Translations under genes and position numbers: made by a program | Source: a virus | Reading direction: 5' to 3' (one strand) | IMG/VR virus record: IMGVR_UViG_3300044640_002221 | Span: 1-64,000 of that record | Length of the DNA stretch: 64,000 nt | Shown here: in pieces, positions 10,301-63,544 of the stretch | Layout of the letters: every line of letters starts with the position of its first letter | Position numbering within the stretch: the first letter of the stretch is position 1 | The notes under the pieces: generated by a model | What the model was told of the DNA's origin: nothing | The model's input: the letters and a program-made list of their open reading frames with translations, nothing else | The model's database searches: none

Positions 10301-13300
10301 AGCCAGCGTTAGACATAGGTTTAACAATCTTAATGACAAAAACCCTCTTTCTAGAAAAGAGTTAGGGTTGATGGAAGTATCCTACGCCGCTGCTAACTCT
10401 CTTTTGTATGGTAGGCAGAATAGACGCAGAGAAATATTTACGTTTGCCACACAGATACTCAACCCCATCTTTCAGTTTACTGCTGTTAGTAAACTAGACC
10501 CTCAAGGTAACGCTTTAACTTTAGGGGCTGGTTTTCAGTTCTTACCTATCTTAGGAGCTGGTTCTATTCCTCCTGCTCCCTTTGAGATTAGGTTAAAACC
10601 TTTAATGACTAAAGCAGCTTTAAGAAAGCAACAGTTTCTTGCTACTGCGGCTGCTTTAGATGATCAAAATGCTTCAAAATCTAGAGACACTTACAGCAAA
10701 AACCAAAACTCTTCTTTTGCAGCTAACGCCCTTTCCCTTCTATCTTTACCTGGTTTACTGCTATCAGTTAACAAAGATACTTCCTTCTCGCAAATAATAA
10801 GCTTTGTCGGAGCTTCTTCTTATCTAGCTTCTGGAACTAATAGAATAGAAAACTTCTTGAGGACTAACGCCGGACAGGCAGTAAGAACTGAACTTAAGCA
10901 GATAAAGCCTTTATATGATATAGCCAAGTTTGGATTAGGCACAGTAGAGACTATGGCTAGATATAGTCAAGTACCTTTATTAGTGATGCCTAATGCTTTA
11001 ATGAAGGCTACCACTAGCTACTTTAATATTCCTCAACAATCATTAGCTAAGTTTGGTTCTAGAGCAAGAGCGATCGCACCTTACCTTTTAGCTTATGCCT
11101 TTGCTTCTGGTATTACTTCACCGGAAGGTTCTTTCTCAGGAGTAGAAGCAGATAAAGAACCAAACTATGCGGCTGCTGAACTATCTAGGTTTGCTTTTTC
11201 TGTAGCACCAATCACAGCAATTTACGGTTCAGGTTTACAAAAAGCGGGTGTATTTGCCAGAGCCGACAGTTTTGATAATGTTACAGGTAATGGATTTATA
11301 GCTAGAAAGCAACAACAGATAGCGCAGATAGCAAAAGTAGCTAGTGAGTCAGGGGCAGAAGCTCCTTTAATAAGAAGTGCTGCGTTAAGATTGTCTATTG
11401 CATCTAGAAGAATATTTAGTATTAGTGCTGTGTTAGCTGCGGTCGGGCTTGGTGTAAGAGCAACAACAGGTAAGAGTTTAGGATTCTTAGACATTATCTC
11501 AGATTCTAGCCCTGCACCAGCTAATCCTGAACAAGCTGCTTACTGGAGAGCTGCTGGTATTGAGCGGGCTAGATATCAACCTAAGAACTTAGGAGAAGCT
11601 GCGGGCAACTACGCTAACTATCTTGTTAGGTCAATAGGTGGCTTACTAGGAATAGATAGATTAATTTACAGAGATGACTCCAATGCCTTTATGTCTCTTG
11701 GAGGTCCATTTGGGGTATCTGAGGGTAAATCTGGCTTTAGACTGTATACTCAAGCGCAAGCAACCTTTGTAGATATCAGTGGTTCGAGCTACTCTCTTGG
11801 TGAAACAATGATGAGCACCGACCTAGCAATGCAACTGGTAGCTGTTATAGGTGGAATGGAACAAACTGATTATGAGAAGGAAAAAAACATCTCATTATTC
11901 TCAGACCGCTATCAGAAGTTTAGAGGAGCTACACCAAGAAGGACTCCTGCGAAAGTAACAGGAGAACTTTCTAGTTCAGAAGCACAAGCAGCCTCTGGGG
12001 CTAGTAGTGCATTCATTTCTGCCTTGGCTTATAGAAAGGCTTATAGTGATAATCTACGCTATCAACGACCATCTGAGCTTACTTTAGACTTATTGATGGA
12101 GTCAGCTAAAACTGGTAGAATTGCCAGCCGCTTTGGCTTTATAAAACCTTCCTTTAATTCTTTAGCTACTTTAGGTAGTATTAGCGGAGACTTTATAAAA
12201 GGTGGTACGGGCTTACTACAAAGGGCTGCTAATAGCCTTAGCAACTTTGTAAACCAAGTTAGAGGAACAGGAACTACTTACAGCACAGAGTTAATGACTG
12301 AGACACCAAGAGAACAACAAAGTTCTCTTCCAGTAATTGGTTACTTTACAGATACCTTTAAGTACATTCTTGGTGGTTTCTCTGGGACTACAACAGCAGC
12401 AGCTTCGGGAACTTTACTACTTCAACAAGCTCCTTTACTGCTATTAACAGTAGGCTCTTCTTTAACTTTTGCTGTACAGATGACCACAGCTCTAGCGGCA
12501 TACCATCATGGAGGACTAGCTCAAGATGCTCTACGTCAAGTGGAAGATAAACACTTAGACTTCAGACGTAGAGGAGTAGTTAAAGTCGGTTCTAGAGAAG
12601 TTAAGAGTAGTTATTATTTAACTATTGAACCTAAAAGCGGTGGCTCAGTAAAACCTAAAGTTTTATCTTTGAGCTCTCAAATGCTAGAAGACTCTAGTAT
12701 AGTATCTCCAGGTCAAGATATAGGTGTAACTAAAAGCAGGATTGACTCTATAAGTAAATCTGTACAAAAAACTATTAAAGATTACTATACTGGTCTGCAA
12801 AACCTTGTTAACCCTAAAGGTAATAGCAGTCTGAATAGTTTAGATATTAATATTCTTCTTGGTGATAATCCTGACACGACTGATTTTGTCAGCAAACTAA
12901 GAAGTCATGTTAACGACAATTTGCTACAAAGAGGAGTAGTCGCACCTACAAGTAAGGGAAGCCCTCTTGTAAAGTTTTATGAAATCTTATCTATAAAAGA
13001 AGTTGACTCGGTTTTATCTAGACTTGATGGACTAGACGTAGAAATAAACAACATCTTAGCTAAGACAGCTACTGATGATGTTAAAAAGAACTTAATAAAA
13101 GTATCTATAGCTTCTAAACTTCAAAACCTTGATTCTAGTCTGTTTGAGAATGCTACAGCAGGTTATCTAACAGATGCACAAATGGCTGTGCAGTTTGATT
13201 ACAGTCCAGAGATAGGAATGGCTCGAAGTAGAGTTCCTGGTCTATCTGGCTCAACTTTAGCTACTTCAGAGATAATTCGTACAAGCGGCTACCTTGGTTT

Positions 13301-16300
13301 ATTAAAACAAGGTCTACAAGGATTAGGAAGACTAACTAATAGAGTAATAGACGCAGTACCTTTTTATAATATTGCTTCGGCTTTAACAAAAGCTGCAAGT
13401 AGTTCTGACTCTTTAGAAAGAGGAAGAGCTGCTGGTGCTGCAGCCTTCTACACCTCACAACTGCCCCAGATAGGCTTTAGCGTCCTGGCTTTGAGAGGAT
13501 TAGCAGGTTTAGGTTGGGGGGCTGGAATTGGGTTAGTAGCGGCGGGAGTTGGACTTTATTTAGCCGACCAATACTTTTTAAAAGGGGCAACAACCAAAGC
13601 GATTCAAAGAGGAGGGCGCTGGGTTGATAGAAACATAGGCTCTCCTTTTACTAGAATGACTGCTGGAGTTTACGATACTCTTGCTCAGACTCCAGTAGTA
13701 AGTCAGGTTTTGTCAGTAGTGGGATTACCTTTTAGAGCATTAGACCCTTTGTTAGATAGTGCTTGGCAATCTGCAGAAAACAGCCCAGCAGGATACGCTG
13801 CTTTAAGCTTTGTACTTCCTAGAACAATAGACCAAGTTTATCAAGAACAGGCTTTTAAAAATCCTGCTTATAACAGAGCAGGAGAAAGAATGGAATTACT
13901 GTCTAACAGCGAAGTCAGAAATTATTATAAACAGAAGCTACGGTACAACCGATCTAAAGCTGATTCTTTATCAAGTGGTGTATCATCTGCGATCGCTCCC
14001 TTTCTATTAGGAGGAACTTCTTCTGTTGGTGAGCAGCAGATTCAGAGTATGTACTTTGATAGTAAAGGAGGAGCCCCGCGTGTTCTTGCACCTTTTGCTA
14101 ATCAATCAATGGTTAGCGGCATCCAACAGTTAGCTATTGAGCGTAGAGAAGCAATAGCCGCGCATGGCGGTTATGGTTCTTACAAACGCAGAAGACTTTT
14201 AGCTTTTGACGGGTTAGGAAAGTTCTCTATTCTTTCTTCTGTTTACACTAAAGCGAGTCTCGCGTTTAATGGAACTTATCAAGGTTTACTAGCTAAAGGA
14301 TTAACAGAGACAGCAACTACTTTAAGCTGGATTCCTAGAGGCTGGAATAAGTTTACTACTTGGACAGCAGACCAAACTAGAGCTTTAAAAGGTATAGCAA
14401 TAGACAGACCTTTTGTTAACTTCTCTAATTGGGTGGCTAAGAAATGGTCAGGCATTAAAAACATACCTGCTATAAAAGGTCCTGTAACAGCAATAAAAAA
14501 CATACCTAGTGCTATAGGAGGAACGTCTTTAGGCAAAGGTTATACAGCTATAAAAGCTGGTGTTGCTGAAAGATTGACTGACTTCGGGTCTACTTGGGGT
14601 GTAAGGTTTGTTAGAGGCTCTGTTTTTGCCCTCTCAGCTTATGCTATTACTACTTTAGCAAGTCGTATAATACTTAGTGTTGTAGGTTCAATTGGTTCAA
14701 AACTAGACCCAGATAACAAAGAGTCTGCAGAAAGATTCTATAAAGCTGCTGCTATTGCTAGTAATCCTTCTATTGCTACTGGAGTTGCTGCTGTTACTTT
14801 TGCTGCTACTTTAGTTTCTAGAAGAGCTTCACCCTTTTTAGCTAAAGTTAATACTAGTCTTTATAAAGGATTAATTACAGGCTTAGGAGGGGCGGGCTTG
14901 TATGGTGGAACAGCTTATGCTTTTTCTTTCTTACCAGCTTTGTTTATTAAAGACCAAAAGACTAAAGAGTCATTCCAAATGGGGGCCGCTATTTCAGGTG
15001 GCTTAGTTGGTGCTTATAGATATGGCTTATTACAACCTTTTTCTAAGACTTATAGACCATTAGGCGCACTTAATAGTTTTAATATTGTGGGCTCTAAAGG
15101 TTTTCAAGTCCCTCTTAATAGACTCACACTTTTAGAAGCTGACTTCAACAGAGTTAAAGGTATAGGGGTTGGAACAGGAAAGTTTTTTACTGGTTTAGTT
15201 CCTCAACAAACTAGAACTAGCATCAGTAATTATTTTACTAACTCTACTTGGATTAAAAACAGCTTAGGGGCTGTTAAAGGAACATTTTCTAAACTTAACT
15301 TTAAACCAATTAGCTGGTTTAAAGTTAGTCGTCAAACTAAAGTTAAGTTAGGTAGGTTTGGAAGAAGCGTGGGTACTACTACTCGTAATGTGGGCGTATT
15401 TGCTAGAAACTTTGCTCCTTCTTTGCTTGATATAGGTTTAGTAAGTTACGCGGGTACTCAAGTCTTTCAGTTAAATGATCGTTCTACTAGACAGCAGTTT
15501 AGGGCAGAGTACCAAAATCTATCTAGTGTTTCAATTAATGCTGTTGTTGGGTCTTTCTTGGCGTTAAAGATGCAATCGCCGGGAGCAGCCTTAATTGTGG
15601 CGTTAGGATTAGAGCGCACTATAAATCCTTTAGTAGGACAAGTGTTAGGGGATTTAGGGTACAAAGACGAAACAGGTTTAGTAAAAGCAGGTGTGCTTAT
15701 TGGGTCTGGCGCAGCTCTTACTTACTCTGTTCATTCAGGATTTACTTATGGTCTTAAAGCTTTATCAAAAACACCTACCTCCCCAGTAGGTGCTAGTGCT
15801 GCATTAAAAGGTTGGGCTAAACCTGCGTCTCGTATTATAAGCGGGGTGCAGCTAGGTTTAAGTGTTGGAAATATAGTTAACGAAGCCAATAAACCCGCCA
15901 ACAGAGACTACAGAGTAGTAAGTCAAAGTTTAGGTAAAGATGCTGCCGGAATTGTTAGCTCATTCACAACAAGTGTGGGTTTATTAGGAGGTCCAGTTGG
16001 TATCTTTGGTACAGCAGTTGCGTCTTCAGTAGCAGAACCAATCCTTGCAGATTCTTTCTCTAAGACTTTAGAGAGAAGAATGCGTCAAGCAGGTAGAACT
16101 AGTAAACAAAGAGGTAGAGAGTTACAACGAAGTGCAACTGAATGGACTGTTGGAGGATTAGTAGCTGGTGTGGGTATTGGTTTAGCTGCTACTCTTATTG
16201 CTGTGGGTGCTGCTGTAACTGCGCCTATATTAGCTACTGGAGCATTAATAGGAGCAACAGCAGGTGCTCTTATTGGTTTATATATAGGGATTGAAAAATT

Positions 16301-19300
16301 CTTCTGGGGTACGCAAGCCTCACCATTTGACAAAGGAGAGCAAAGAAATAACACACTACCCGCAAGCAGACCAACTAGTTCGTCTAAGACTTTGCAGCAC
16401 GCGCAGTATCTTCAAAAGAGAAACCAACAGCAATCTAAAAATTCAATTCTGGTTGCTTCTGCTGATATTGGTCAAAGTGATATTGGGTATTACTCATTCC
16501 AGAAAGAGAAAGAAGAGTCTTTAAGTCTCTTAGACTACTTTAAAAGCGGGTTGTCCGCTTTAGGCGGAGGGATACTAAACGCGGGTAGAAAGGTTAAAAG
16601 AGTCTTTGAAAGATTAGGCAAGCAAGCACAGGATAATCTCTTCGGCAGTCAAGAGTATGTAGAACCTTCTATAGAAGGAACAGGTGGGATACCTATTGTT
16701 TCTACCTACTATACTCCTGGTGAAGGTGGTTCAATCAATGGACCGAAAGTTGATGCTAGAAGTCAATATATTGACGCAAACTCCAATGTTGCTGCTGTAA
16801 GAAATCTTGGAGTTAGAGGTGGTTTACCTTATGGCTCTGTGATTCAAGTTAGTAATCCTAAAACTGGTCGTTCAGAAATGTTGACTGTACAAGATACAGG
16901 CCCTTTTGTAAAAGGTCAACGAAGAGGTTTAGATATCACAAAGGCTGCTTACGACCGATTAGGTGGAACTGGGTTAACCACTTTTAATGTGAGAATTATT
17001 TCTGCGCCAGGTGCTAAACCAGGACAGGTGTTTAAAGTTGAAACTCCAGATAACTTCTCTTATGAGTTAGTTTATGGAGATCAGCAACGTAGAGAGGGAT
17101 TACTCGAACAAGTGGGCACGGGCTTAGAAAATAGTTATGAACGACTATTTGATAACAATATTATTGTCAGAGAGAAACTTAATGTTAGAAACTCAATAAA
17201 CCAACGTGTTCCTAATTCTTTTGCTGATACAGAAATACATCACCCTTCTAGAGGTAAAAGAGGTAGAGAGGGCAGAAGAAACTATGTAGATATGGGAGGA
17301 GTGCTTGAAGAAGTAAACTCCCGCAATCCAAGCTTGATAAAGAAAGATTTTTTGTTGAGTAAAAACGGCTCTTTAGATGTTAACGTTCCATCCCCTGCTG
17401 CTGGTTATGTAAGTTTAGACTCTAGTTGGGGTGGAGTTTATATCTACGAGGATGCAGCAAGAACTAAACTATTAGCGGTAGTTTTACACTTAGACAACTT
17501 TAAAATAAAAAGTGGTCAGTATGTTAAGTATGGTCAAGATTTAGGTCTGCAGGGTGGTAAAGGTGTTGGCAGAAGGTATGCCAAACACACCCACATGGAG
17601 TTAACTAAAGAAGGGTATGATTACTACTTTAAGGATGTTCAGGATGGTGTGTTTGATAGAAAACTAAATGGAGCATTAAATGTACAAGGGTCAATTCAGC
17701 CTGTAGTTAACACCACCTTAAAAAATAAGCCCTTTGCACAGATTGCTGATTGGGCTACAACTAATCATGGCCAGACACAAAACTCCTTAAATCTAGAGAG
17801 CATTGCAAGAAGAAATAATCTTGAGTCTATTGTTGTGCAAAAACTGGGCAGCAAGCAGCAACAAAGCTTTAATAAAGATAAGTACCTACCCCCTGCTTCT
17901 ACTCTTAAGTTAATAATATCTGACTTAGTTATTCAAGAAGTTAAGTCCGGTAGGCTTTCTGTAAATACTAAAGTTACTGTTTCAAAGTCAGACGTTGCTG
18001 AATACTCTTCTATAAAAGCTGGAAGTTCGCTCTCTGTAGCCTCTTTACTACAACAAACACTGAGATACTCTGAAAATACTTCTTCTAATACTTTAATAAG
18101 ATTACTGGGTGGGACGGAAGCAGCTACCAAGCTTGCTAGAGCTAAAGGATATACTTCTACAACAATAGGTAATCCTTTTAGTATAGTAGGGGCTAAAGGG
18201 TTTAAGAATACTTCTACTGCCTCAGATGTCACTAAAGCAATGAGTAGTATCTTATCTGATAAGTCTGAGGCTGGAGTAGTTGCTTCTAAAGCCTTATACT
18301 CTACAAGAAACTTTGGGTTTAAAGGAGAGATAGGAGGAAAAATAGGTAACACATCTAAAGTTATAGGTGATGTAGGTTTAGCCAATATTAAAGGAGAGAC
18401 TTATATAATAACAGCCTTCTCTTTGAGAAATGGTAATTTAGACTCTTCTAGAAGTGTTATAAAAAATTCAATAAATCAAGTTATTGAGGCTTACTATAAT
18501 CCAGCACCAAATAACCAAAGTCAAGTAACACCAAGAAGTAACAAGGGTCAACTAAAACTCCCTCAAGGCTACGAGTCTCTGAACCTTTTAGCTGAGACAT
18601 TAATCACTAACAAATACTTTGACCAATCAACAGCTAAAGGACGAGCTGCTTTAGCTACAGCTTTATTAATTGGTGGAGGAGAAGCTTTTGGTAAAGGAAC
18701 TACCAGAACAGATTTTTTTACTTACATGGGTGGCACAGGCGACATGATGAAAGGCTTTGCCCAGTTCAACACCACAATCAGGGAGTTCAGAGAAAAGACA
18801 AAATCTCCAGACTCTTATATGAACTTACTGGGAAGTATGTTGACAGGTGAGAGAACACTACCAAGAGGAATAGGTAGGTTCAACTCTGCTGAGTTAGCAA
18901 GTGCCGTTCAACAAGGTAAAGTTACAAGCGGTAAACAGCTTATACAGTTCATACAGAATAGAATTGATAAAGTTAGCTGGCAGGGTTTATATGATGGGAT
19001 GCGCCGTGTTCCTGGACTGGCTGACCAACTTGTAAATTACTTAAGGAACTCACAGTCTGTTAAGCCTACTAAACAAGGCTACGCTACTTCTATTACTCCA
19101 AAGACTGCTCTATCTGAATCTGATAGACAAACTTTAATATCTTCTAGTTTAGGTCTTTCTACAAGTCAACTACAGAAGATAACTAAAGAGTACAAGCAAG
19201 GAACTCAAACTTTAGACCTGGTAAAACAAAAGGTTGCTCAACAAACCCAGAATCTCAACATTCAAGTTGAGGCTGGAGGCGATACACCTAAACCAAGCGA

Positions 19301-19574
19301 TCGCCCTGCTGACCCCTTAGCTAATAGTATTAAAGCTGCTCCAGAGGTACAACAGACAGGAGCTGTGGTTAAGACAGAATCTGGAGTAAGTGTGAGAATA
19401 GAGAAACGAGTAGATGATGCCCACCAGATTGAGAGAGCCGCCAGTCCGTTTCCTACAAGAGTTAACAAAGAAATGGCTAGTAGAGAATCTCAAGGACTTA
19501 GCAGCTTCAACAGCAGTGGGTTTATGGACTTGTTTGGAATGGCTGATGGTTGGACTAGTCAGCAGTATGCTTAA
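7353..19574 (+). CDS. giant virion protein: nuclease, tape-measure-like body, peptidoglycan-active C-terminus
   Basis: 4073 residues. Residues ~10-155 are a staphylococcal-nuclease/thermonuclease domain (RFALIDAPEV, KYGRSISEVFL, LLKEGLAKG). Residues ~160-3090 are long, alanine/glycine rich and studded with hydrophobic segments, as in tape-measure proteins. Near 3110-3230 is an RlpA/3D-type double-psi barrel (LTVQDTGPFVKGQRRGLDIT). Near 3345-3425 is an M23/LytM-like domain (SGQYVKYGQDLGL, then HTHMEL). Near 3480-3720 is a serine beta-lactamase/DD-peptidase-like domain (PASTLKLI with SxxK, YSENTSSNTL, then GGKIGN in place of KTG). A further ~170-residue domain follows (3730-3900). GGAG precedes the ATG. 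The likely role is a tail or ejected virion protein that sets length and opens the cell wall. Confidence 0.8.
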   Translation: MEYSTNPKPEKKSYSVSYIEDADTISVKRGSESFSVRFALIDAPEVAHSPLEQESKLRSVQNQLEWGERAKARVTELITQSGNQVELQVTGKDKYGRSISEVFLKSGQSLQEQLLKEGLAKGNYSFITDSADKTRVQAAESVAFKQSLGLWGDSSFINPSQYRQLLKSNAFSPNPFTSLSQPNTTLGSIYLPTTLSEGFASKYPNSKPQLYTDFYYTLTGKMPSGFQKYLARTADSQLGGVSFGSFINRIFPDLYSPGNGLVGTLAKGVGRVLDTATGFYAFDYYDKLRNGDLRGGINKYHQNQYKTNQQRGLFENLLGGLTTTAGATASSLAFYFGVSHTLSIARSHFEDIGVDYVTNLLSNSQNNVGDRALKSFFFSGDLLNVFTEIEEANIPGVKGKQVHDYFAYVMHKAGAASTFAESSNLDTTIITHLDNANSTGNTYTNDLIERLTRELNALHTSTASFAQATQQVERNVLGLNKSTGEIDLSRGLASGYNRPAGGLLSAIGNLRKVDSSNFINIIRPVINEIAVGTPQEITQLNIELSELQTQVGRSPFLKYADVKGGTYTFLEDITAQQYGYKRLETLASALDKVAEYIPANPLLYFKPYRDMVGITSLNVDRGNGNSENYSLRSLLGPGFSGLTKFSRRMMRSLGGLGSTENIVKQMGDNFRLFELEQELNRSEQRLFKDTTKILNRMKQPTGSVGMLNDLIKNRQPTANILADLTGALYSYDGTVAKTAEELLASKTSARLINKYKRDFATYNSLLQQVDNSTEALSSTPKTTFRAIRGALFSVGPLLILDKVLDPQFMRSPSVDLITQVFMDANLLQDKDTRHAQIEYTGAVPGYIKYPAMGIGFILGGHALPRFEQQQMAAGGFIEKAITKAANGTNLLDLLNSSPGTTPRSSLLSGLTEDVVNEVASLGKYRTRTRFGWLGAFLGGATALLGTQAVFGMAAGFMNLVRSPFRDSAPKTQPEPMIAAFSLAASVRHRFNNLNDKNPLSRKELGLMEVSYAAANSLLYGRQNRRREIFTFATQILNPIFQFTAVSKLDPQGNALTLGAGFQFLPILGAGSIPPAPFEIRLKPLMTKAALRKQQFLATAAALDDQNASKSRDTYSKNQNSSFAANALSLLSLPGLLLSVNKDTSFSQIISFVGASSYLASGTNRIENFLRTNAGQAVRTELKQIKPLYDIAKFGLGTVETMARYSQVPLLVMPNALMKATTSYFNIPQQSLAKFGSRARAIAPYLLAYAFASGITSPEGSFSGVEADKEPNYAAAELSRFAFSVAPITAIYGSGLQKAGVFARADSFDNVTGNGFIARKQQQIAQIAKVASESGAEAPLIRSAALRLSIASRRIFSISAVLAAVGLGVRATTGKSLGFLDIISDSSPAPANPEQAAYWRAAGIERARYQPKNLGEAAGNYANYLVRSIGGLLGIDRLIYRDDSNAFMSLGGPFGVSEGKSGFRLYTQAQATFVDISGSSYSLGETMMSTDLAMQLVAVIGGMEQTDYEKEKNISLFSDRYQKFRGATPRRTPAKVTGELSSSEAQAASGASSAFISALAYRKAYSDNLRYQRPSELTLDLLMESAKTGRIASRFGFIKPSFNSLATLGSISGDFIKGGTGLLQRAANSLSNFVNQVRGTGTTYSTELMTETPREQQSSLPVIGYFTDTFKYILGGFSGTTTAAASGTLLLQQAPLLLLTVGSSLTFAVQMTTALAAYHHGGLAQDALRQVEDKHLDFRRRGVVKVGSREVKSSYYLTIEPKSGGSVKPKVLSLSSQMLEDSSIVSPGQDIGVTKSRIDSISKSVQKTIKDYYTGLQNLVNPKGNSSLNSLDINILLGDNPDTTDFVSKLRSHVNDNLLQRGVVAPTSKGSPLVKFYEILSIKEVDSVLSRLDGLDVEINNILAKTATDDVKKNLIKVSIASKLQNLDSSLFENATAGYLTDAQMAVQFDYSPEIGMARSRVPGLSGSTLATSEIIRTSGYLGLLKQGLQGLGRLTNRVIDAVPFYNIASALTKAASSSDSLERGRAAGAAAFYTSQLPQIGFSVLALRGLAGLGWGAGIGLVAAGVGLYLADQYFLKGATTKAIQRGGRWVDRNIGSPFTRMTAGVYDTLAQTPVVSQVLSVVGLPFRALDPLLDSAWQSAENSPAGYAALSFVLPRTIDQVYQEQAFKNPAYNRAGERMELLSNSEVRNYYKQKLRYNRSKADSLSSGVSSAIAPFLLGGTSSVGEQQIQSMYFDSKGGAPRVLAPFANQSMVSGIQQLAIERREAIAAHGGYGSYKRRRLLAFDGLGKFSILSSVYTKASLAFNGTYQGLLAKGLTETATTLSWIPRGWNKFTTWTADQTRALKGIAIDRPFVNFSNWVAKKWSGIKNIPAIKGPVTAIKNIPSAIGGTSLGKGYTAIKAGVAERLTDFGSTWGVRFVRGSVFALSAYAITTLASRIILSVVGSIGSKLDPDNKESAERFYKAAAIASNPSIATGVAAVTFAATLVSRRASPFLAKVNTSLYKGLITGLGGAGLYGGTAYAFSFLPALFIKDQKTKESFQMGAAISGGLVGAYRYGLLQPFSKTYRPLGALNSFNIVGSKGFQVPLNRLTLLEADFNRVKGIGVGTGKFFTGLVPQQTRTSISNYFTNSTWIKNSLGAVKGTFSKLNFKPISWFKVSRQTKVKLGRFGRSVGTTTRNVGVFARNFAPSLLDIGLVSYAGTQVFQLNDRSTRQQFRAEYQNLSSVSINAVVGSFLALKMQSPGAALIVALGLERTINPLVGQVLGDLGYKDETGLVKAGVLIGSGAALTYSVHSGFTYGLKALSKTPTSPVGASAALKGWAKPASRIISGVQLGLSVGNIVNEANKPANRDYRVVSQSLGKDAAGIVSSFTTSVGLLGGPVGIFGTAVASSVAEPILADSFSKTLERRMRQAGRTSKQRGRELQRSATEWTVGGLVAGVGIGLAATLIAVGAAVTAPILATGALIGATAGALIGLYIGIEKFFWGTQASPFDKGEQRNNTLPASRPTSSSKTLQHAQYLQKRNQQQSKNSILVASADIGQSDIGYYSFQKEKEESLSLLDYFKSGLSALGGGILNAGRKVKRVFERLGKQAQDNLFGSQEYVEPSIEGTGGIPIVSTYYTPGEGGSINGPKVDARSQYIDANSNVAAVRNLGVRGGLPYGSVIQVSNPKTGRSEMLTVQDTGPFVKGQRRGLDITKAAYDRLGGTGLTTFNVRIISAPGAKPGQVFKVETPDNFSYELVYGDQQRREGLLEQVGTGLENSYERLFDNNIIVREKLNVRNSINQRVPNSFADTEIHHPSRGKRGREGRRNYVDMGGVLEEVNSRNPSLIKKDFLLSKNGSLDVNVPSPAAGYVSLDSSWGGVYIYEDAARTKLLAVVLHLDNFKIKSGQYVKYGQDLGLQGGKGVGRRYAKHTHMELTKEGYDYYFKDVQDGVFDRKLNGALNVQGSIQPVVNTTLKNKPFAQIADWATTNHGQTQNSLNLESIARRNNLESIVVQKLGSKQQQSFNKDKYLPPASTLKLIISDLVIQEVKSGRLSVNTKVTVSKSDVAEYSSIKAGSSLSVASLLQQTLRYSENTSSNTLIRLLGGTEAATKLARAKGYTSTTIGNPFSIVGAKGFKNTSTASDVTKAMSSILSDKSEAGVVASKALYSTRNFGFKGEIGGKIGNTSKVIGDVGLANIKGETYIITAFSLRNGNLDSSRSVIKNSINQVIEAYYNPAPNNQSQVTPRSNKGQLKLPQGYESLNLLAETLITNKYFDQSTAKGRAALATALLIGGGEAFGKGTTRTDFFTYMGGTGDMMKGFAQFNTTIREFREKTKSPDSYMNLLGSMLTGERTLPRGIGRFNSAELASAVQQGKVTSGKQLIQFIQNRIDKVSWQGLYDGMRRVPGLADQLVNYLRNSQSVKPTKQGYATSITPKTALSESDRQTLISSSLGLSTSQLQKITKEYKQGTQTLDLVKQKVAQQTQNLNIQVEAGGDTPKPSDRPADPLANSIKAAPEVQQTGAVVKTESGVSVRIEKRVDDAHQIERAASPFPTRVNKEMASRESQGLSSFNSSGFMDLFGMADGWTSQQYA

Positions 19575-19815
19575 ACAACTCTTTTAAATCAACAGGTATA
19601 TGTTGACTACTTGCTATAGCGTACACTTTGCACTCACCTTTGTAGTCTGTCAAAAAGAACTTAAGTTGGTTTGAGTTTTTGAATTTAAGTTCTAGTCCAG
19701 GTGCTACAAAAGTAGAGTTTAAAATACTATACCAAAGTTTGGAATCTACCAAAAGATAGTATCTTTGTTCTGCTTGATGGTGTGAACTTACGCTCACCAA
19801 TGTGTATACTATCAA
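19555..19815 (-). CDS. hypothetical protein, convergent with the giant gene
   Basis: 86 residues; its end overlaps the last 20 bases of the giant gene on the other strand, and its start is divergent from the recombinase. Contains YYLLVDSKLWYSILNSTF and LKFFLTDYKGECKVYAI, a mixed alpha/beta composition typical of a real small protein. A regulator of the adjacent recombinase is possible from position only. Confidence 0.5.
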   Translation of the reverse strand: MIVYTLVSVSSHHQAEQRYYLLVDSKLWYSILNSTFVAPGLELKFKNSNQLKFFLTDYKGECKVYAIASSQHIPVDLKELFKHTAD

Positions 19816-19837
19816 GTATGATTTTCAAGGTTTTACA

Positions 19838-21430
19838 ATGTCTCAATCTCAAGTATTTGCTTACTGCCGTGTCTCTACTTCTGAACAGGCAGAGGATAGA
19901 GATTCTCTTGTTAAACAGATGCGCCGCCTCCGCGCTGCTGGAGCTACCAAAATCTATTATGATGTGGAATCCAGAACTGTTGACACTCGCCGGGGCTTAA
20001 TGCAGTTAATAGCCGATGTTAGTTCTTCTCCAGCAGGTTTGATATCTAAGTTTCTATTTGTTAGAGTAGACCGTCTCACTTCTTCTAACAACGTATTCTA
20101 CACTTTAATGGATGCTCTTAATAAGAAAGAGATTAAATCTTTTGCTCTTGATGAACCTTTTGACATTGCTAGTATTGGCGGTGAGCTAACTATTGATGTT
20201 AGGTTAGCTGCTGCTAAGTATGAGATTAAAATGTTATCAATGCGCGTTAAAAAAGAACGAGATGCAAGAAAAAAAGATGCTAAAGCACACTGGAACGCTC
20301 CTTATGGTTATATAGTTAACAACGACAGTTATTACCTTGACAACCGAGAAGTTATCTGTCTACTAGAAGGTAAAAGAGTATTGACAAGAGCTGAATTAGT
20401 AAGACACGTCTTTGATACTTTCTTTGAAGTTGGAACTATTAACAAGACAGTTTCTACTCTACACCAAACTTTTGGCATTGAATCAAAAGCAATAGTTAAG
20501 AGTAAGGAAAAAAGACCAAACATAATAAAAGAAGAAGATGAGTTAAACTACGAATCTATCAAGAATATGTCTGGTGGTTCTGTGATAGTTGGTTATTCTG
20601 CTAAGAGTTTAAAATGGACGGTCTCTGGTCTGAAAAATACTCTAGTTAATCCTGTCTACGCTGGTGGTACACCTTATGATATTAACCTTAAACTCAAAAG
20701 CCATAAGAAACCATTTGAACAGTGGACAGTAGCTTGGGGAAGTCATGGTAATACAGATGACTACTCTACCAACAACTTTGGGGCTACAGGAGAAGCAATC
20801 ATTACTAGACTAGAGTACGACAGAGTTAGAGAGGTAATTACTTCTAACCGTCATAACAGATGGTCTAACGAACAGAAGTTTACTAACCCTTTTGCTGGAT
20901 TATTAAAGTGTGCACATTGCGGGGCTGCTTACACCAGACAATCTAAAAAGCTTGTTAAAGGTAAGAACTTTATTAGATACCATTATCAATGCAGCTTTTA
21001 TCACATTAAAGCTTGTACTAACAAAACTATGATCAGTTCTGATGTACTAGAAAAGCAAGTAGTAGAGTTGTTAGTACAGGAAGCAGATAGACTTTCTGTA
21101 ATGGGATCACAGACTAACTTTACTCTACAGGAAAGCCAAGAGCTTAAAACTCTAAGGACTCAGTTAGCTGGACTGGAGGCTTTACCCTCTAGTTTAGATA
21201 TTGCTGGGTTGATAAATAAAGTCAGACAAGATATAGCAGCTATAGACCACTCTACAGCTGCTCAAACAACGCAGTATTTAGTTTCTAAAGATTTGATAAT
21301 TGAGGAGTTCAAACATCCTGAAACTTGGCTGGAGCTAGAGCCTTCTGACAAAACAGCTCTTCTTCAAGCTTGTATCCGAAAGATAATAGTAGGTGGCAAC
21401 CGAGTAGTAAGTATAGAGTATAAGTATTAA
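19838..21430 (+). CDS. large serine recombinase (XisF/phage-integrase type)
   Basis: 531 residues from ATG 19838 (MSQSQVFAYCRVSTSEQ); AAGG lies upstream, and a start at 19802 would add 12 non-conserved residues. N-terminal resolvase domain: YCRVSTSEQ with nucleophile Ser13 and SLVKQMRRLRAAGATKIYYD. Middle recombinase domain: WNAPYGYIV, with RHVFDTFFEVGTINKTVSTL. Zinc ribbon: FAGLLKCAHCGAAYTRQSKK with a second Cys pair (YQCSF...KACTNK). A coiled coil follows. Such enzymes integrate phages or excise developmental elements such as the fdxN element in Anabaena. The gene is the last plus-strand gene before the early region, a typical lysogeny position. Confidence 0.85.
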   Translation: MSQSQVFAYCRVSTSEQAEDRDSLVKQMRRLRAAGATKIYYDVESRTVDTRRGLMQLIADVSSSPAGLISKFLFVRVDRLTSSNNVFYTLMDALNKKEIKSFALDEPFDIASIGGELTIDVRLAAAKYEIKMLSMRVKKERDARKKDAKAHWNAPYGYIVNNDSYYLDNREVICLLEGKRVLTRAELVRHVFDTFFEVGTINKTVSTLHQTFGIESKAIVKSKEKRPNIIKEEDELNYESIKNMSGGSVIVGYSAKSLKWTVSGLKNTLVNPVYAGGTPYDINLKLKSHKKPFEQWTVAWGSHGNTDDYSTNNFGATGEAIITRLEYDRVREVITSNRHNRWSNEQKFTNPFAGLLKCAHCGAAYTRQSKKLVKGKNFIRYHYQCSFYHIKACTNKTMISSDVLEKQVVELLVQEADRLSVMGSQTNFTLQESQELKTLRTQLAGLEALPSSLDIAGLINKVRQDIAAIDHSTAAQTTQYLVSKDLIIEEFKHPETWLELEPSDKTALLQACIRKIIVGGNRVVSIEYKY

Positions 21431-54647: not shown

Positions 54648-55114
54648 TGCTTTACTCTCTTTAGCTTATTGTGTGAGTATAACCTGTTTATATGGCTAAT
54701 AAACAGTTTCTTTTTACCTGATATAGGGCGTGTCGGCTTCTGCACCTTTACTAAACTGTCTAGGTCAAGCCCTGCCAGCACTTGTAAATCTTCTATGCAC
54801 AAGTCTGAAAAGCTTAACTCATGTAGGTGCATACCTACCTTTGTAATTACTGTATTGCTTGTGAAACCGTTAACAGACTCTTCTACCAAGTCTAAGAACT
54901 TTAGTCTGATCGGTTTCTTTAGTCTGATCGGTTTCTTTAGTAAACATAGCTTTACAGGTTTTCCATTATTCTCTGGTTTATAAAGAGCTGGGCTACTCCA
55001 GGTCTTTTCCTGTCTATACTCACTATCTTTCAGATAAGGTTTCACTATCTGCTTGATAGTCTTAATTAAATGCTTTTTGAGAGTATCTAACTCTTGGTCT
55101 GTTAGTAATGTCAT
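54608..55114 (-). CDS. basic hypothetical protein with short internal repeat
   Basis: 168 residues, Lys-rich. Two tandem 18-bp units (54900-54917 and 54918-54935) encode the repeat KKPIRLKKPIRL. Ends with KRVKQCKKTYKVTAERL. Nucleic-acid binding is possible from charge. Not recognised. Confidence 0.55.
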   Translation of the reverse strand: MTLLTDQELDTLKKHLIKTIKQIVKPYLKDSEYRQEKTWSSPALYKPENNGKPVKLCLLKKPIRLKKPIRLKFLDLVEESVNGFTSNTVITKVGMHLHELSFSDLCIEDLQVLAGLDLDSLVKVQKPTRPISGKKKLFISHINRLYSHNKLKRVKQCKKTYKVTAERL

Positions 55115-56143: not shown

Positions 56144-56274
56144 CGGTTCCGACTACTCTCTCTAGCTTTCACTAGAGGTCAGATCATATCATCCTCAGTT
56201 ATGAGGGAGCCTGTTTCGAGTGTCCGACACCCTACGTCTTGTGACTGACCGTTGAACCTTGTACGTGCTATAAG

Positions 56275-56355
56275 TGGATGCTAAAAGAGTTGAACTTTTC
56301 TTGGGTTTCCCCACGACTTATGAGGTCGTTGCCTAAACCGCTCGGCCAAGCATCC
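56275..56355 (-). tRNA. class II tRNA with CAU anticodon, inside intron P6
   Basis: A full cloverleaf is visible: acceptor GGATGCT/AGCATCC, D arm GCC-GAGCGGTTTA-GGC, anticodon stem ACGAC/GTCGT with loop CTCATAA (anticodon CAT), a long variable arm GGG-GAAA-CCC, T arm AAAAG-TTCAACT-CTTTT and discriminator A. No encoded CCA. The long variable arm and A73 suggest a leucine-type body, but CAU would read AUG, or AUA if modified to lysidine. The acceptor stem stacks on intron helix P6. Confidence 0.85.
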
Positions 56356-56427
56356 ATCTTTATAGTTTAGCACCTTGGCTGCTGATTGTCCATATCCTTG
56401 TTCTTTTTAAACCTGATGACAGCTAGT

Positions 56428-56703
56428 TTAACAAAGGTCTAAGTTACCTTCTGAACTATAATCTACGTCTGTCAGATGGTCTTGACAACATAAGTAAACT
56501 TTTGCGTCTGCTTTTACCAATCCATCTGCTAACAACTTCTGCACCTTATCTAAAAGCTGCTGAACTGTTATTGCTTCTGGGGGTTTAGGAGCATAGTTTT
56601 GAGGTACTAGTAATGCCCCTATGGTCTTTAAACCTGGATGAGGTGCAGCACCACTTTTGGTTATTGTTTTAGGAAGTATGTAAGGTTCTGTCATGTCTTC
56701 CAC
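56428..56703 (-). CDS. hypothetical protein encoded in intron 4 P5 loop
   Basis: About 90 residues; start GTG 56703 or, more likely, ATG 56694 (MTEPYILPK) with GGAAG just before. It contains TVQQLLDKVQKLLADGLVKA and KVYLCCQDHLTDVDY. The frame closes at TAA 56428 before the 3' arm of P5, so the gene fits entirely in the P5 loop. No nuclease motif, so it is passenger cargo and not a homing endonuclease. Confidence 0.6.
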   Translation of the reverse strand: MEDMTEPYILPKTITKSGAAPHPGLKTIGALLVPQNYAPKPPEAITVQQLLDKVQKLLADGLVKADAKVYLCCQDHLTDVDYSSEGNLDLC

Positions 56704-56814
56704 TATTTATTAACTATCATTATAATCACGCTTGCCGTTTCCAGCTACGTTGTGGTGAACAAGGCTCTGAGGAATTTCCAGCAATTTAAGCTCTTTACCC
56801 ACGACCAACTAATC

Positions 56815-56905
56815 AATCGTGCACCGCGTTTAATATTATAATTCCTGTTCCTTTAGCCTCCTTTCGTACGCGTATCATGGCTTCTTTCATCATCTGGGCG
56901 CATTC
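56815..56905 (-). CDS. family A DNA polymerase, exon 3 (motif C)
   Basis: Encodes ECAQMMKEAMI then RVRKEAKGTGIIILNAVHD, matching the family A segment TAADIIKLAMI...VHDE that carries motif C (catalytic Asp in VHD). It is directly followed by an in-frame TGA belonging to intron 4. Without splicing it would be a 26-residue peptide from ATG 56893. Confidence 0.8.
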
Positions 56906-57000
56906 CGATTATGTTATCACTGAGCTTTTTATCTCAGTTTCTAAAGATTTCTCCTTAGTCCAGGGCACGTCTTGAACAGTAAGTGGGTAGTAGGTTTGGT

Positions 57001-57366
57001 CTAGAAGGGAGAGGCGTAACCTTTCCAGTCTTCTATGGTATTTAAGGTTTGAGTCTCAGTGGTCAGTCCAGCTATTAAAGTAGAGACACCTCCTTGTAAG
57101 TTTGGTAGTTTTATTCCTTTAGAAGGATTAGCTCTTTCAAACTCTGCATAAGCTTTATCAGAGTAAAACTGCCCCGTGCTTTGCTGGAGTTGGTCTCTCA
57201 GCTTAGTGTTCTCTTCCATAGCAACAATCAACTTTTCAGTCAATTGTTGGTTCTGTGTTTGCAGGTCAGCTACTAAAGCTTGATAGCTACTGGTGAGAAC
57301 TATCTTGGTGTCAAGTATCTTCTCTAAGTCAGAAGACTCGACGAACTGTTCGTTGTGGTTGTTCAT
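57001..57366 (-). CDS. coiled-coil protein in intron 3 P8 loop
   Basis: 121 residues from ATG 57366 (MNNHNEQFVESSDLEKIL), 4 bases after the stop of the gene upstream. Central coiled coil (LVADLQTQNQQLTEKLIVAM) and C-terminal NTIEDWKGYASPF. A 13-bp palindrome copy is at 57341-57353 in the NEQFV codons. Not recognised. Confidence 0.55.
   Translation of the reverse strand: MNNHNEQFVESSDLEKILDTKIVLTSSYQALVADLQTQNQQLTEKLIVAMEENTKLRDQLQQSTGQFYSDKAYAEFERANPSKGIKLPNLQGGVSTLIAGLTTETQTLNTIEDWKGYASPF
57341..57353. repeat. 13-bp near-palindrome ACGAACTGTTCGT
   Basis: Third identical copy (with 3471 and 24892), close to a gene start on the minus strand. Confidence 0.4.
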
Positions 57367-57370
57367 TTGT

Positions 57371-57979
57371 TTAGATAACGTAAGGTTGAACAATTGCGCG
57401 GTACTCTTCAAGTCTGGCTTCTAAGGTTTGGCACTTAGTTTCAAGTTGATTAATCTGCTCTACATACTTAGGAACTAAGTCTTCAAGCTCTGCCAATCTA
57501 GCTCTCAAGTGTATGAGTTCTGACTTTGAGCTTTCCTTCTTCTCTGTAGCCTTTTCAGACTGTTCATTAAAGTAGTCTTCTGCAGTACCTTCCCATAAAG
57601 GGTTAGCCTCAAGCTTATCAACTGCCCAGCGAAGAATCTTATCACTGATAATTACTTTGAAGCAGCTCTCTTCTTTTAGAAGACCAATCTTTTCCACAAC
57701 GTCCCAATGCTCATAGAGGAAGATACAGCGGTAAGCTTTTCTTCTTTCTACTCTCTCTTCTAAATAATGATTAAAAGAGTTGAAAGTTCCTCTGTCAGTT
57801 TCTACAGGGTTAGACTTAGTAGCTGATGCCAGCATATCTCTAATCTTTGTGAGAGACTCTCCAGCATCTCGGTAATGTTGAAGGCTCTTTCTCCTTAACT
57901 GTTGAGACTCTTTAAAGTTCTCGTCAGCTTCACCAAACTTAGTCATGTAATTTGTTTCTAATAGAGATAGGATAAGCAT
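57371..57979 (-). CDS. DUF3102-like coiled-coil protein in intron 3 P8 loop
   Basis: Up to 202 residues; Met12 (57946, MTKFGEADENFKES) is an equally good start. The middle (DAGESLTKIRDML, FNSFNHYLEERVERRKAYRC) resembles DUF3102-type phage and plasmid proteins, and the C-terminal third is a coiled coil (LAELEDLVPKYVEQINQLET). Function unknown; nothing suggests an endonuclease. Confidence 0.55.
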   Translation of the reverse strand: MLILSLLETNYMTKFGEADENFKESQQLRRKSLQHYRDAGESLTKIRDMLASATKSNPVETDRGTFNSFNHYLEERVERRKAYRCIFLYEHWDVVEKIGLLKEESCFKVIISDKILRWAVDKLEANPLWEGTAEDYFNEQSEKATEKKESSKSELIHLRARLAELEDLVPKYVEQINQLETKCQTLEARLEEYRAIVQPYVI

Positions 57980-58006
57980 AGAACTTTTATTCTGCTAAAG
58001 GACATG

Positions 58007-58028
58007 ACCTGTGGTTTAAACCACAGGT
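58007..58028. terminator. 22-bp perfect palindrome inside intron 3 P8 loop
   Basis: ACCTGTGGTTT followed by its exact reverse complement. It lies upstream of the DUF3102-like gene. As RNA it forms an 8-9 bp hairpin; it may separate intron structure from cargo transcripts. Confidence 0.4.
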
Positions 58029-58331
58029 TCTCATTACTAATATAGCAGCTTATTCTAGAAGAAACATCTTGAGTCTTATTAAACCTTCCAACTACCTTAA
58101 TACGACCTTTGCTGCCTACTTACTGTCCGGGGGCGCTCTTGGGTCTCTTACCGTCTGTTCCTGCAATGCAAGACTGAAGACTTAGACCTGCCCGTCGCAC
58201 CTTCCTACCATTTCTGATAGGCTTGGCTCAAAGTTATCCTCAACATCACTTGGTAGGACTTTCTTATGAGTTCACCCCCTGCACTCTAAAAGTCACCTAA
58301 TAGAGGGGCAATTGTTATTTCAGTGTTATTA

Positions 58332-59204
58332 CCGTCAAGGCTCTTTATCCCTGACTTCTACTGGTCACCCAGCAGCTTGGACTATTTCATTATCTAGACT
58401 TAGTAGTAGAACTCTCTTTCTATTTAAGAAGAAACCAGGTTCTTGGTACATAAGCTTGGTCAGCCGTTCAACGCGTTCCTTACTGCCGACTCTTATCACT
58501 TGCACACTCCTATTGTTGTAGATGCTAACCTTAAAGTCATTCTCTCTAAGAAAACTAACTAATTGGTCAACAAACTCTTTACTAGCAGAGCATAAAGTTA
58601 TAGCTTTGTAATCCCCTTTTGCCCCATCCTTTTTGATGTGACCATTCCCATCCATGACACCTCTAAAGAAGCTAAAACTTAAAGGAAAGTTAACCTTTAA
58701 AGATTTACTCTTTCTAGGGGTTATTCCAAGGCTAGTTAAATAAGAAGCAACTTCTTTATTAGTGAAGCTTACCTCGTAATAAGTAGTTTGGTATCTCTTG
58801 TCGAAGATAGGGTAGGGTTTCATCAATTCCCCTAAAAAGCTGCAGAAAGCTAAGGCTAAGTCTTCATCTTTTGTAACTAGACTAACCTTTCCTCTATCAT
58901 GCACGCAGCCATCTGTTGCCATTATTCCCAGCCAGTATTGAACTTCTGGGGCAAGCATTTCTGTAAATGGATTAGTTGTTACTTTCTTAGGGAGTCTTGG
59001 CATCTTTTTCTCTACTACATTCTCAGTCTAGATATCGGGCGCTCGTGGGCAGATTATTATTGGGATTCACTGCCTAGTCTCTGAACCTTCTAGGAAACCT
59101 ATGCCCTTCCTAGCTTGGCTTAGCGTTATCTTACCTTGTAAGACTTTCACTAAATTCACCCGATTTTCATTTATTGATTACTCAATAAAGGGGCTCTCTA
59201 CGGG
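58332..59204 (-). ncRNA. group I intron 2 of DNA polymerase, LAGLIDADG gene in P8
   Basis: P1: exon GGGT pairs with GCCC (U-G at splice). P6 CTAGG/CCTAG; R element GGTTCAGAGACTAGG; P7 GACTA (59075-59079) with TAGTC (58380-58384); P7.1 GGCAG/CTGCC; P8 arms 59025-59034 and 58391-58400 are exact complements (TATCTAGACT). The endonuclease gene fills P8 and its last codons run through the P8 and P7 3' strands. The 3' end near 58332 is not resolved. Confidence 0.75.
58365..59003 (-). CDS. LAGLIDADG homing endonuclease of intron 2
   Basis: 212 residues with two LAGLIDADG motifs: VQYWLGIMATDGCVH (~21-35) and FFRGVMDGNGHIKK (~117-130), so a single-chain enzyme. Each motif keeps its acidic residue. 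The C-terminus (LDNEIVQAAG) is encoded by sequence that also forms the intron S element. Expected to cut intronless polymerase alleles near the IQG codons. Confidence 0.85.
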   Translation of the reverse strand: MPRLPKKVTTNPFTEMLAPEVQYWLGIMATDGCVHDRGKVSLVTKDEDLALAFCSFLGELMKPYPIFDKRYQTTYYEVSFTNKEVASYLTSLGITPRKSKSLKVNFPLSFSFFRGVMDGNGHIKKDGAKGDYKAITLCSASKEFVDQLVSFLRENDFKVSIYNNRSVQVIRVGSKERVERLTKLMYQEPGFFLNRKRVLLLSLDNEIVQAAG

Positions 59205-59274
59205 ACCCTGGATCGCGTGGTTCACTGCAGCGCGAACCGAGCTTTCTCCTACGCCCTTAGCATTCTCTTCATCT
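59205..59274 (-). CDS. family A DNA polymerase, exon 2
   Basis: Encodes DEENAKGVGESSVRAAVNHA then IQG, the family A segment before the second palm strand (compare RxAxNxxIQG). With exon 1 it gives GLWRWV-DEEN, and with exon 3 AIQG-ECAQMMKEAMI; both joins keep phase. Only 70 bases, flanked on both sides by group I intron elements. Confidence 0.75.
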
Positions 59275-62920: not shown

Positions 62921-63544
62921 CTACAAGTAATTCATGTCTATTTTATAAGACATAGATGGAATGATAAATGGCTCAACAAGGGCTATAAATTTCTTTGCTT
63001 CCTTTGTTCCACAAGTTAATCTGTACCAACCTTTGTTTAGAACCTGACCAAAGTTAATAGCGTACTTTTCTTTAAAGAAATCTATGATAATTTGGTTTTC
63101 TTCTTTGGTTCTATGAGTGTTCAGATATATTCTTCTAGCGTGAATCTTTCCATTTCTTTTAGGTAAAGAAAGATTTCCATCGTCCATATACCAAATAGCT
63201 ATTCCTTCTGGCGTTAGGTAGTTTAAAATCTTTCTTTGATAGGTTTTTATCCCATTTGGGTACATCCACTTTCTTAAATAACGAAACCATCTATGCTGTT
63301 TTGAAATTTGCACACCTGGATACCCATTATTATTTATCTCCTGGATTTTTGGTTGTTTGCCCCCGAGAATTGAGTGTAGTAACTTAGCTTTGTGCTCCAG
63401 GTACTCTCTTTGCTTTGCTGAGTGTCGCAACTTCAAAGTATAGTACGTTTTAGGAACAGTACATCTTTTGTTAACTACAGGCGTTACGTACCCGTCCCCT
63501 AAGACCATTGCTATTAGCAGAGATTTTTTTAACTGTCTTTCCAT
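62921..63544 (-). CDS. LAGLIDADG homing endonuclease of intron 1
   Basis: 207 residues with two motifs: LLIAMVLGDGYVT (~8-20) and IAIWYMDDGNLSL (~115-127), both with acidic residues. Type seen in LAGLIDADG_2 (intron-encoded) enzymes. The gene sits in the P7.1 loop, not in P8 as in intron 2, and its TAG overlaps the P7.1 3' arm. Confidence 0.85.
   Translation of the reverse strand: MERQLKKSLLIAMVLGDGYVTPVVNKRCTVPKTYYTLKLRHSAKQREYLEHKAKLLHSILGGKQPKIQEINNNGYPGVQISKQHRWFRYLRKWMYPNGIKTYQRKILNYLTPEGIAIWYMDDGNLSLPKRNGKIHARRIYLNTHRTKEENQIIIDFFKEKYAINFGQVLNKGWYRLTCGTKEAKKFIALVEPFIIPSMSYKIDMNYL

Follow-up and report, generated by a model that had tools for sequence, protein, structure and literature searches.

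A phage group I intron with a tRNA gene as the predicted tip of helix P6

Here we describe a 671-nucleotide (nt) group I intron in a phage DNA polymerase gene, in which a complete class II transfer RNA (tRNA) gene with the anticodon CAU is predicted to form the tip of helix P6. The intron and its gene are read from the minus strand of a 64,000-nt stretch (hereafter the window), which comprises positions 1 to 64,000 of the 136,923-base IMG/VR record IMGVR_UViG_3300044640_002221. A homologous intron of 370 nt, with the tRNA again inside P6, occupies the identical polymerase site in a second phage (hereafter L002; G001, IMGVR_UViG_3300046777_002658, 196,877 bases), the one match among 2.9 million viral contigs. 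We favour, with a probability of about three in four, the reading that this is an IA-type self-splicing intron in which a tRNA-Ile2 has replaced the tip of P6, and that both RNAs are functional. One transcript would then have to give rise to a spliced message as well as a tRNA.

By its domain matches, the interrupted gene encodes a family A DNA polymerase. Two matches to the Pfam family DNA_pol_A (PF00476) lie upstream of the intron on the minus strand, at 66402–66184 (profile positions 72–147, E 2.5e-10) and 64154–63756 (profile positions 162–268, E 5e-9). The intron and its flanking exons are as follows.

56814 to 56144, minus strand: group I intron, 671 nt, placed by pairing, by the L002 homologue at the same site and by a family-model match
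56815..56900 (upper boundary approximate), minus strand: upstream exon, AQMMKEAMIRVRKEAKGTGIIILNAVHD plus the first base of W, just before motif C; L002 match of 80% (tblastn/blastp), in-frame join, upstream PF00476
55872..56143, minus strand: downstream exon, polymerase C-terminus, W-LLVTQVELNARAPGKTW...GPIWLH stop; 76% amino acid identity with L002 over both exons

The predicted join, gtg cac gat t|gg cta ctc gta, reads VHDWLLV, and the frame remains open through a 117-residue C-terminal stretch to the stop, bearing out the proposal of a first-pass annotation of the window that splicing restores VHD-W-LLVTQVEL. The ligated exons would read CACGAUU|GGCUACUC, whereas the unspliced frame ends at VHD-stop, inside the catalytic motif. 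The exons common to both phages contain ...RAAVNHAIQG..., followed by AQMMKEAMIRVRKEAKGTGIIILNAVHD|W LLVTQVEL.... In family A polymerases, the motif B region precedes motif C, which contains HD-. From this layout and the order of the exons, we assign the last two exons to motif C, which the intron would split (VHD|W); the last exon alone was recognized neither by Pfam nor by a PDB search with the exon alignment. The restored motif C (56815/56143) is HDW in both phages, rather than the HDE usual in family A polymerases.

All of the core helices, P1 and P3 to P10, can be placed in the intron, and the strands of P3 to P8 follow the canonical order with zero non-pairs. The window strands were placed by hand, partly guided by covariation in relatives, and then checked, so that these window counts are a biased test; the unbiased test of the window intron is the covariance-model search described below. 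The 5′ splice site follows a U that forms a U.G pair with the P1 guide, and the last intron nucleotide is G. The boundaries and the P1, P4, P7 and P10 pairings of the first-pass annotation all hold, and P3 and P8, whose failure to fit around these helices it had named as grounds for rejection, could be drawn.

56821–56815 with 56806–56800, minus strand: P1, exon CACGAUU with guide GGUCGUG, identical in L002
56811–56807 with 56143–56139, minus strand: P10, guide UAGUU with 3′ exon GGCUA, identical in L002
56793–56788 with 56212–56207, minus strand: P3, GAGCUU with AGGCUC; L002 has GAGCCU/AGGCUC (U.G to C-G)
56784–56779 with 56384–56379, minus strand: P4, UUGCUG with CAGCAG
56773–56771 with 56391–56389, minus strand: P5, UCC with GGA, 3 base pairs (bp) beside P4
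56764–56757 with 56403–56396, minus strand: P5a, CCUUGUUC with GAACAAGG; L002 has CAUCUA/UAGAUG
56745–56734, minus strand: P5b hairpin GCUG-GAAA-CGGC; L002 has GUUG-GAAA-CAAC
56378–56360, minus strand: P6 5′ side, CC 56378–56377, AAG, GUGC 56373–56370, UAAA, CUAUAA 56365–56360
56273–56257, minus strand: P6 3′ side, UUAUAG 56273–56268, CAC, GUAC 56264–56261, AA, GG 56258–56257
56250–56246 with 56186–56182, minus strand: P7, GGUCA with UGAUC; L002 has GAUCA/UGAUC, relatives GACUA/UAGUC and GAUUA/UAAUC
56245–56236, minus strand: P7.1, GUC-ACAA-GAC (GUCACAAGAC hairpin), an IA-type feature
56232–56227 with 56223–56218, minus strand: P7.2, GGGUGU with ACACUC, IA-type; the L002 loop is 1 nucleotide longer
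56206–56193, minus strand: P8, CCUCA-UAAC-UGAGG
56177–56160, minus strand: P9 hairpin CUCUAG-UGAAAG-CUAGAG, the same in L002; a UGAAAG-loop hairpin also occurs in the DW2 intron

Hairpins P7.1 and P7.2 between P7 and the 3′ strand of P3 mark subgroup IA, and both are found there; blastn and covariance matches likewise lead to IA phage introns, although the subgroup of these relatives is not independently assigned. The P7 pair of the guanosine-binding site is present, the first pair being G-C in 10 of the 10 sequences with both strands read. An alternative P7, GGUCAG/CUGACC, was dropped: L002 breaks GGUCAG (GAUCAG), and GRUCA/UGAUC was preferred because it pairs in both phages and aligns with GACUA/UAGUC of the relatives. 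A P3 of GUCGUG/CACAAGAC was ruled out, as those bases constitute the P1 guide and P7.1. P5 covaries among the relatives as CCC/GGG, UCC/GGA, GCC/GGU and ACU/AGU, the last being that of L002. More broadly, the sequences of P3, P5, P5a, P5b and P7 vary across relatives while pairing is kept, and between the two phages compensatory changes occur in P3 (U.G to C-G) and P7 (G.U to A-U). These features point to self-splicing activity.

The intron belongs to a recognizable family. A blastn search with its 5′ half returned matches in phages of Bacillus, Staphylococcus, Alicyclobacillus and Providencia as well as in phage-like plasmids; the group IA introns compared were those of Bacillus phages AR9/PBS1 and KLEB27-3, Staphylococcus phages DW2 and PT1-4, Alicyclobacillus phage KKP_3916, Providencia phage PSTCR6 and the plasmids. 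The AR9 record annotates its intron-bearing gene as joined pieces. Like these introns, the tRNA-bearing ones have the 98-nt P4-P5-P5a-P5b domain, the AAG/AA internal loop in P6, and P7. The Rfam group I model RF00028 matched none of the 3 relatives searched with it (L003, L004 and L005) at E 0.1. Because it also misaligned the window intron, we built a P4-P5 covariance model from ten other phage and plasmid introns, leaving out both tRNA introns. In the underlying alignment, the domain from P4 to P4′ spans 97–99 nt in 10 of 10 relatives, 98.6% of cells pair (only 24–45% in slid registers), and 13 of 22 pairs have changed on both sides, compared with 6.4 in shuffles. The model found the intact domain in L002, matching from end to end (90.7 bits, E 2.3e-18), and, in the window, the 5′ half of the P4-P5 domain at 56785–56685 (48.9 bits, E 2.3e-8); its match to the 3′ half at 56457–56376, beyond an open reading frame (ORF), is by itself not significant (15.4 bits, E 2.5). 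As a model built without either sequence matches both, the window element is best described, from its sequence, as a group I intron with an ORF splitting its P5 extension.

The tRNA was called by both ARAGORN (56355–56274) and Rfam RF00005 (56355–56275, 50.8 bits, E 1.3e-9), in agreement with the class II tRNA first proposed.

56355..56275, minus strand: class II tRNA(CAU), 81 nt, no encoded CCA, discriminator A73 at 56275

Its cloverleaf is complete, with the conserved positions present and no broken stem; the variable arm is GGG-GAAA-CCC and the anticodon lies in the loop CUCAUAA. The location of the tRNA within P6 stands as first annotated, although a different P6 pairing scores better than the GUGCUA/UAGCAC originally drawn. 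In the better fold, a CC-AAG...AA-GG frame (CC-GAG...CG-GG in L002) encloses GUGC/GUAC and CUAUAA/UUAUAG, and distal to the latter lie a 3/1 internal loop, a U-1:A73 pair and then the tRNA acceptor stem. The fold comprising GUGC/GUAC, CUAUAA/UUAUAG and UGGAUGCU/AGCAUCCA beats GUGCUA/UAGCAC by ~4–5 kcal/mol, with pairing probabilities of 0.82–0.99 versus 0.01–0.17, and in it the AAG/AA internal loop seen in the relatives is preserved. Since this fold runs through leader and trailer into the acceptor stem, the tRNA is modelled as the tip of P6. In the relatives, P6 consists of CC/GG (or CG/CG, GG/CC, GC/GC or CU/AG), the AAG/AA internal loop and then a hairpin; among the 11 relative introns examined, none has a tRNA in P6, which is a hairpin of ~14–37 nt or holds an ORF.

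When 84,980 species genomes were searched by pattern, two cyanobacterial metagenome-assembled genomes (MAGs) proved to encode a class II CAU tRNA on the chromosome. The phage tRNA is 71–73% identical to these and only 52–55% identical to the Met tRNAs of the same MAGs, both of which carry separate CAU tRNAs of the initiator-like and elongator-like Met types. Cyanobacteria have a third class of CAU tRNA, tRNA-Ile(CAU) (PMC6902448). The phage tRNA is thus, by elimination, probably a cyanobacterial-type tRNA-Ile2(CAU). It differs from the MAG tRNA at 10 of 23 stem pairs, all 10 on both sides and none broken; of the 35 unpaired positions only 3 differ, each lying in either the variable loop or the T loop. 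Ten doubly changed pairs with few loop changes indicate that it evolved as a tRNA, its sequence recording selection on the tRNA fold. AUA accounts for 39% of Ile codons in the window phage and 36% in L002, and the other phage tRNAs (Arg-UCU, Thr-UGU and Pro-UGG) also fit A-ending codons. Kinship of the intronic tRNA and the HIP1 octamer GCGATCGC, with 26 copies in the 137 kilobases of the window phage and 34 in L002, point to a cyanobacterium as the probable host. A further tRNA, at 1495–1567 of Microcoleus phage My-WqHQDG (L024), is annotated as a pseudo tRNA-Met and is 64% identical to the intronic tRNA; it has the D arm in common with it and a short variable loop, may be a misnamed Ile2-type tRNA, and is not surrounded by any recognizable intron.

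The comparison with L002 shows how the parts of the intron have fared. Over the exons, the two phages share 76% amino acid identity (about 76–78% by segment). Within the intron, identity is 22/22 from P1 to J1/3, 84/108 in P3-P4, 19/21 in the P6 leader, 80/81 in the tRNA, 22/24 in the P6 trailer and 102/108 from P7 to the 3′ splice site. The single tRNA change since the phages parted lies in the variable loop. By comparison, 17 of 38 four-fold degenerate codon sites differ (Fisher p 3e-9 against the tRNA). The first-pass annotation had also proposed that homologues with the tRNA outside the intron boundaries would overturn its reading; in the one homologue found, the tRNA is inside.

We propose that the intron folds around the tRNA, whose acceptor stem would continue the P6 stack, much as td accommodates the I-TevI gene in P6 (PMC3073962), and that it splices and restores the polymerase reading frame. 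Host RNase P and RNase Z would release the tRNA, from the excised intron or from the unspliced precursor, by cutting at 56355 and after 56275; CCA would be added, C34 would be modified to lysidine, and the mature tRNA would serve the many AUA codons of the phage. The objection raised at the outset, that such cleavage would destroy the intron, is doubtful: both cuts would fall distally in P6, in a part that is dispensable, and the P6 strands left after tRNA removal are predicted to stay paired (−9.6 and −13.7 kcal/mol). With the cuts distal to the core and the strands still paired, releasing the tRNA and splicing the intron need not be mutually exclusive. Galloway Salvo et al. in 1990 (cited in PMC2729099) reportedly described deletion tolerance and trans-splicing for the P6-L6a region of T4 td. 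As a speculation, pairing between leader and trailer could hold processing back until the intron has been spliced out and its degradation is under way, giving the message first and the tRNA second.

Several observations weigh against this reading. RF00028 gives the window intron only 13 bits (E 2.8), misaligned and short of the gathering score of 50; such a miss is expected from the ~290-nt and ~100-nt insertions in P5 and P6, and the threshold is a detection score rather than a defining feature of group I chemistry. P4 of L002 has one bulged U. The energy of the P6 duplex is unexceptional, 93 of 1,000 shuffles being as low, and is weak evidence. Leader and trailer are paired with each other (U-1:A73 and CUAUAA/UUAUAG), which might make RNase P and RNase Z act more slowly. 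Conservation between the two phages extends over P6 to P9 (102/108 in P7-P9), the tRNA not being significantly above it (p 0.39), and the intron region may in part have been transferred horizontally. Finally, scans of the 2.9 million viral contigs and of 50,697 phage records found no carriers beyond the two. These scans used the exact tRNA segment, the P1-P3 junction, the P7 motif, an exon profile and a T-arm plus P6-P7 motif; the pattern scans are blind at stored-piece boundaries, and the P1-P3 junction scan missed L002, so that its empty result means little. Eight loci from the T-arm plus P6-P7 motif scans were dismissed as chance matches, being tRNA arrays or lacking a tRNA beside a group I core, and a search for the tRNA in plasmids found none.

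The same data bear on other explanations. The tRNA sequence might be a structural or protein-binding extension of P6 that is never released, its fold stabilizing P6 or binding a host folding helper. It is coaxial with P6 in the model, its leader–trailer pairing would hinder processing, and some aminoacyl-tRNA synthetases assist group I introns, according to works in the reference list of PMC3073962. Yet the anticodon loop CUCAUAA, the D loop and the variable arm, which are irrelevant to extending a helix, are conserved like the stems, and the other tRNAs of the phages match their codon bias; the introns of relatives fold with 14–30 nt in P6, so no scaffold is required. We therefore consider a purely structural role improbable. 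It is likewise unlikely that the tRNA domain works as a switch, with RNase P, RNase Z, TilS, IleRS or EF-Tu competing with or promoting intron folding; were it so, DNA polymerase expression would be tied to the supply or maturation of an AUA-decoding tRNA. Transcription from an intron-internal promoter, such that tRNA processing never meets splicing and the location is incidental, would fit a sigma-70-like match with an extended TG (TGGACA-17-TAAACT, 56392–56364) that ends 9 nt before the tRNA. This is quite improbable: shuffled sequences lead one to expect 1.1 such matches, from which the three seen do not differ significantly, the matching bases are those of conserved P5/P4/P6 strands, and the upstream promoter hexamer is weaker in L002.

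Decay of either partner is harder still to reconcile with the sequences. If the intron were degenerate, with its pairings as relics and the polymerase C-terminus lost or made in another way, the sub-threshold Rfam score and the L002 bulge would be readily understood, but core helices that are intact and compensated in both phages, exons that are conserved and open, and an unspliced frame that stops within motif C make this very unlikely. Only two carriers are known, as would suit a tRNA that arrived by chance recombination, is neutral and will soon decay; against this, the tRNA is complete, has no broken pair in either phage and has changed at 1 of 81 positions while four-fold sites changed by 45%, leaving a neutral arrival only a very small probability. 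The self-splicing intron with a functional tRNA-Ile2 in P6 thus remains our preferred reading.

To our knowledge, genes carried by group I introns almost always encode homing endonucleases, which require only translation. A tRNA has to be excised from the RNA, so that two RNA-processing reactions would act on one 671-nt RNA, in an order that can be measured; the case makes concrete how far a ribozyme tolerates cuts by cellular nucleases in P6, and the compact 370-nt version of L002 is a ready test object. The tRNA gene is kept inside an essential phage gene, from which the intron is hard to lose without losing the tRNA, a possible route by which an endonuclease-free intron becomes useful to its host.

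Among known systems, the T4 td intron, also a phage IA intron, has the I-TevI gene inserted in its P6 loop (PMC3073962), and the KLEB27-3 intron similarly has an ORF in the P6 loop where the window intron has the tRNA; the td passenger is a homing endonuclease, whereas that of the window is a structured RNA that needs excision to work. The hexacoral mitochondrial ND5-717 group I intron, with a tRNA gene among its passengers (PMC6545197), must likewise coexist with tRNA processing, but here a single tRNA directly extends P6 of a phage intron of 671 nt (370 nt in L002). Fungal mitochondrial introns also contain tRNA genes (PMC7902536), as in the atp6 intron of Ophiostoma minus, where the tRNA gene comes after an endonuclease ORF and is not reported to belong to any core helix. 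Cyanobacterial group I introns interrupt tRNA genes (PMC3984707): the same two partners in the same host phylum, with the reverse nesting. In the literature covered, which excludes most subscription journals and so leaves an earlier report possible, we found tRNA genes in mitochondrial introns, but no phage or bacterial group I intron that carries one and no case of a tRNA extending a core helix.

The window intron has a second passenger, in its P5 extension.

56703–56428, minus strand: ORF of 91 amino acids (from GTG) or 88 (from ATG), of no known family, absent from L002

This ORF lies within CCTTGTTC/GAACAAGG, as first annotated, but the enclosing helix is P5a and not P5, which covariation places at UCC/GGA. 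The insert is closed by a 7-bp inverted repeat (AUGACAG 56694–56688, CUGUCAU 56422–56416), which includes the in-frame ATG and is reminiscent of how the start region of I-TevI is sequestered in td. The ORF matched no Pfam family, no PHROGs family better than E 0.05, nothing by tblastn among the 50,697 phage records and no relative in either phage. It is the sole ORF of the intron and is not recognizable as a homing endonuclease, unlike the named ORFs of the relatives. As L002 has the conserved tRNA and no ORF of this kind, the tRNA is the passenger that the two phages share and conserve, and the ORF a recent or lost one.

The same polymerase gene contains at least two more group I introns, which interrupt it within ~30 codons upstream (56890–59214, minus strand).

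59214–58358, minus strand: intron with a LAGLIDADG ORF, RF00028 63.7 bits
~58330 to 56901, minus strand: nearest upstream intron, core at 58319–58090
57979–57371, minus strand: ORF of 202 amino acids, apparently within the nearest upstream intron
57411–57001, minus strand: ORF of 136 amino acids, apparently within the same intron
62921–63544, minus strand: LAGLIDADG endonuclease gene (PHROG 11023, E 8e-18)

The 202- and 136-residue ORFs belong to no Pfam family, match PHROGs only weakly and do not resemble homing endonucleases; both are kept at the same place in L002 with ~70% identity. The LAGLIDADG gene at 62921–63544 adjoins the motif-B polymerase exon, making a further intron likely there.

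Elsewhere in the window, a plus-strand ORF of 4,073 amino acids (7353–19574) combines staphylococcal-nuclease, M23 peptidase-like and beta-lactamase2-like domains in a single protein. A large serine recombinase with resolvase, recombinase and zinc-ribbon domains (19802–21430, plus strand) makes integration of the phage possible. At 54900–54945, agtctgatcggtttcttt occurs twice as a perfect tandem duplication within an ORF at 55114–54608 (minus strand), giving the doubled peptide KKPIRLKKPIRLK.
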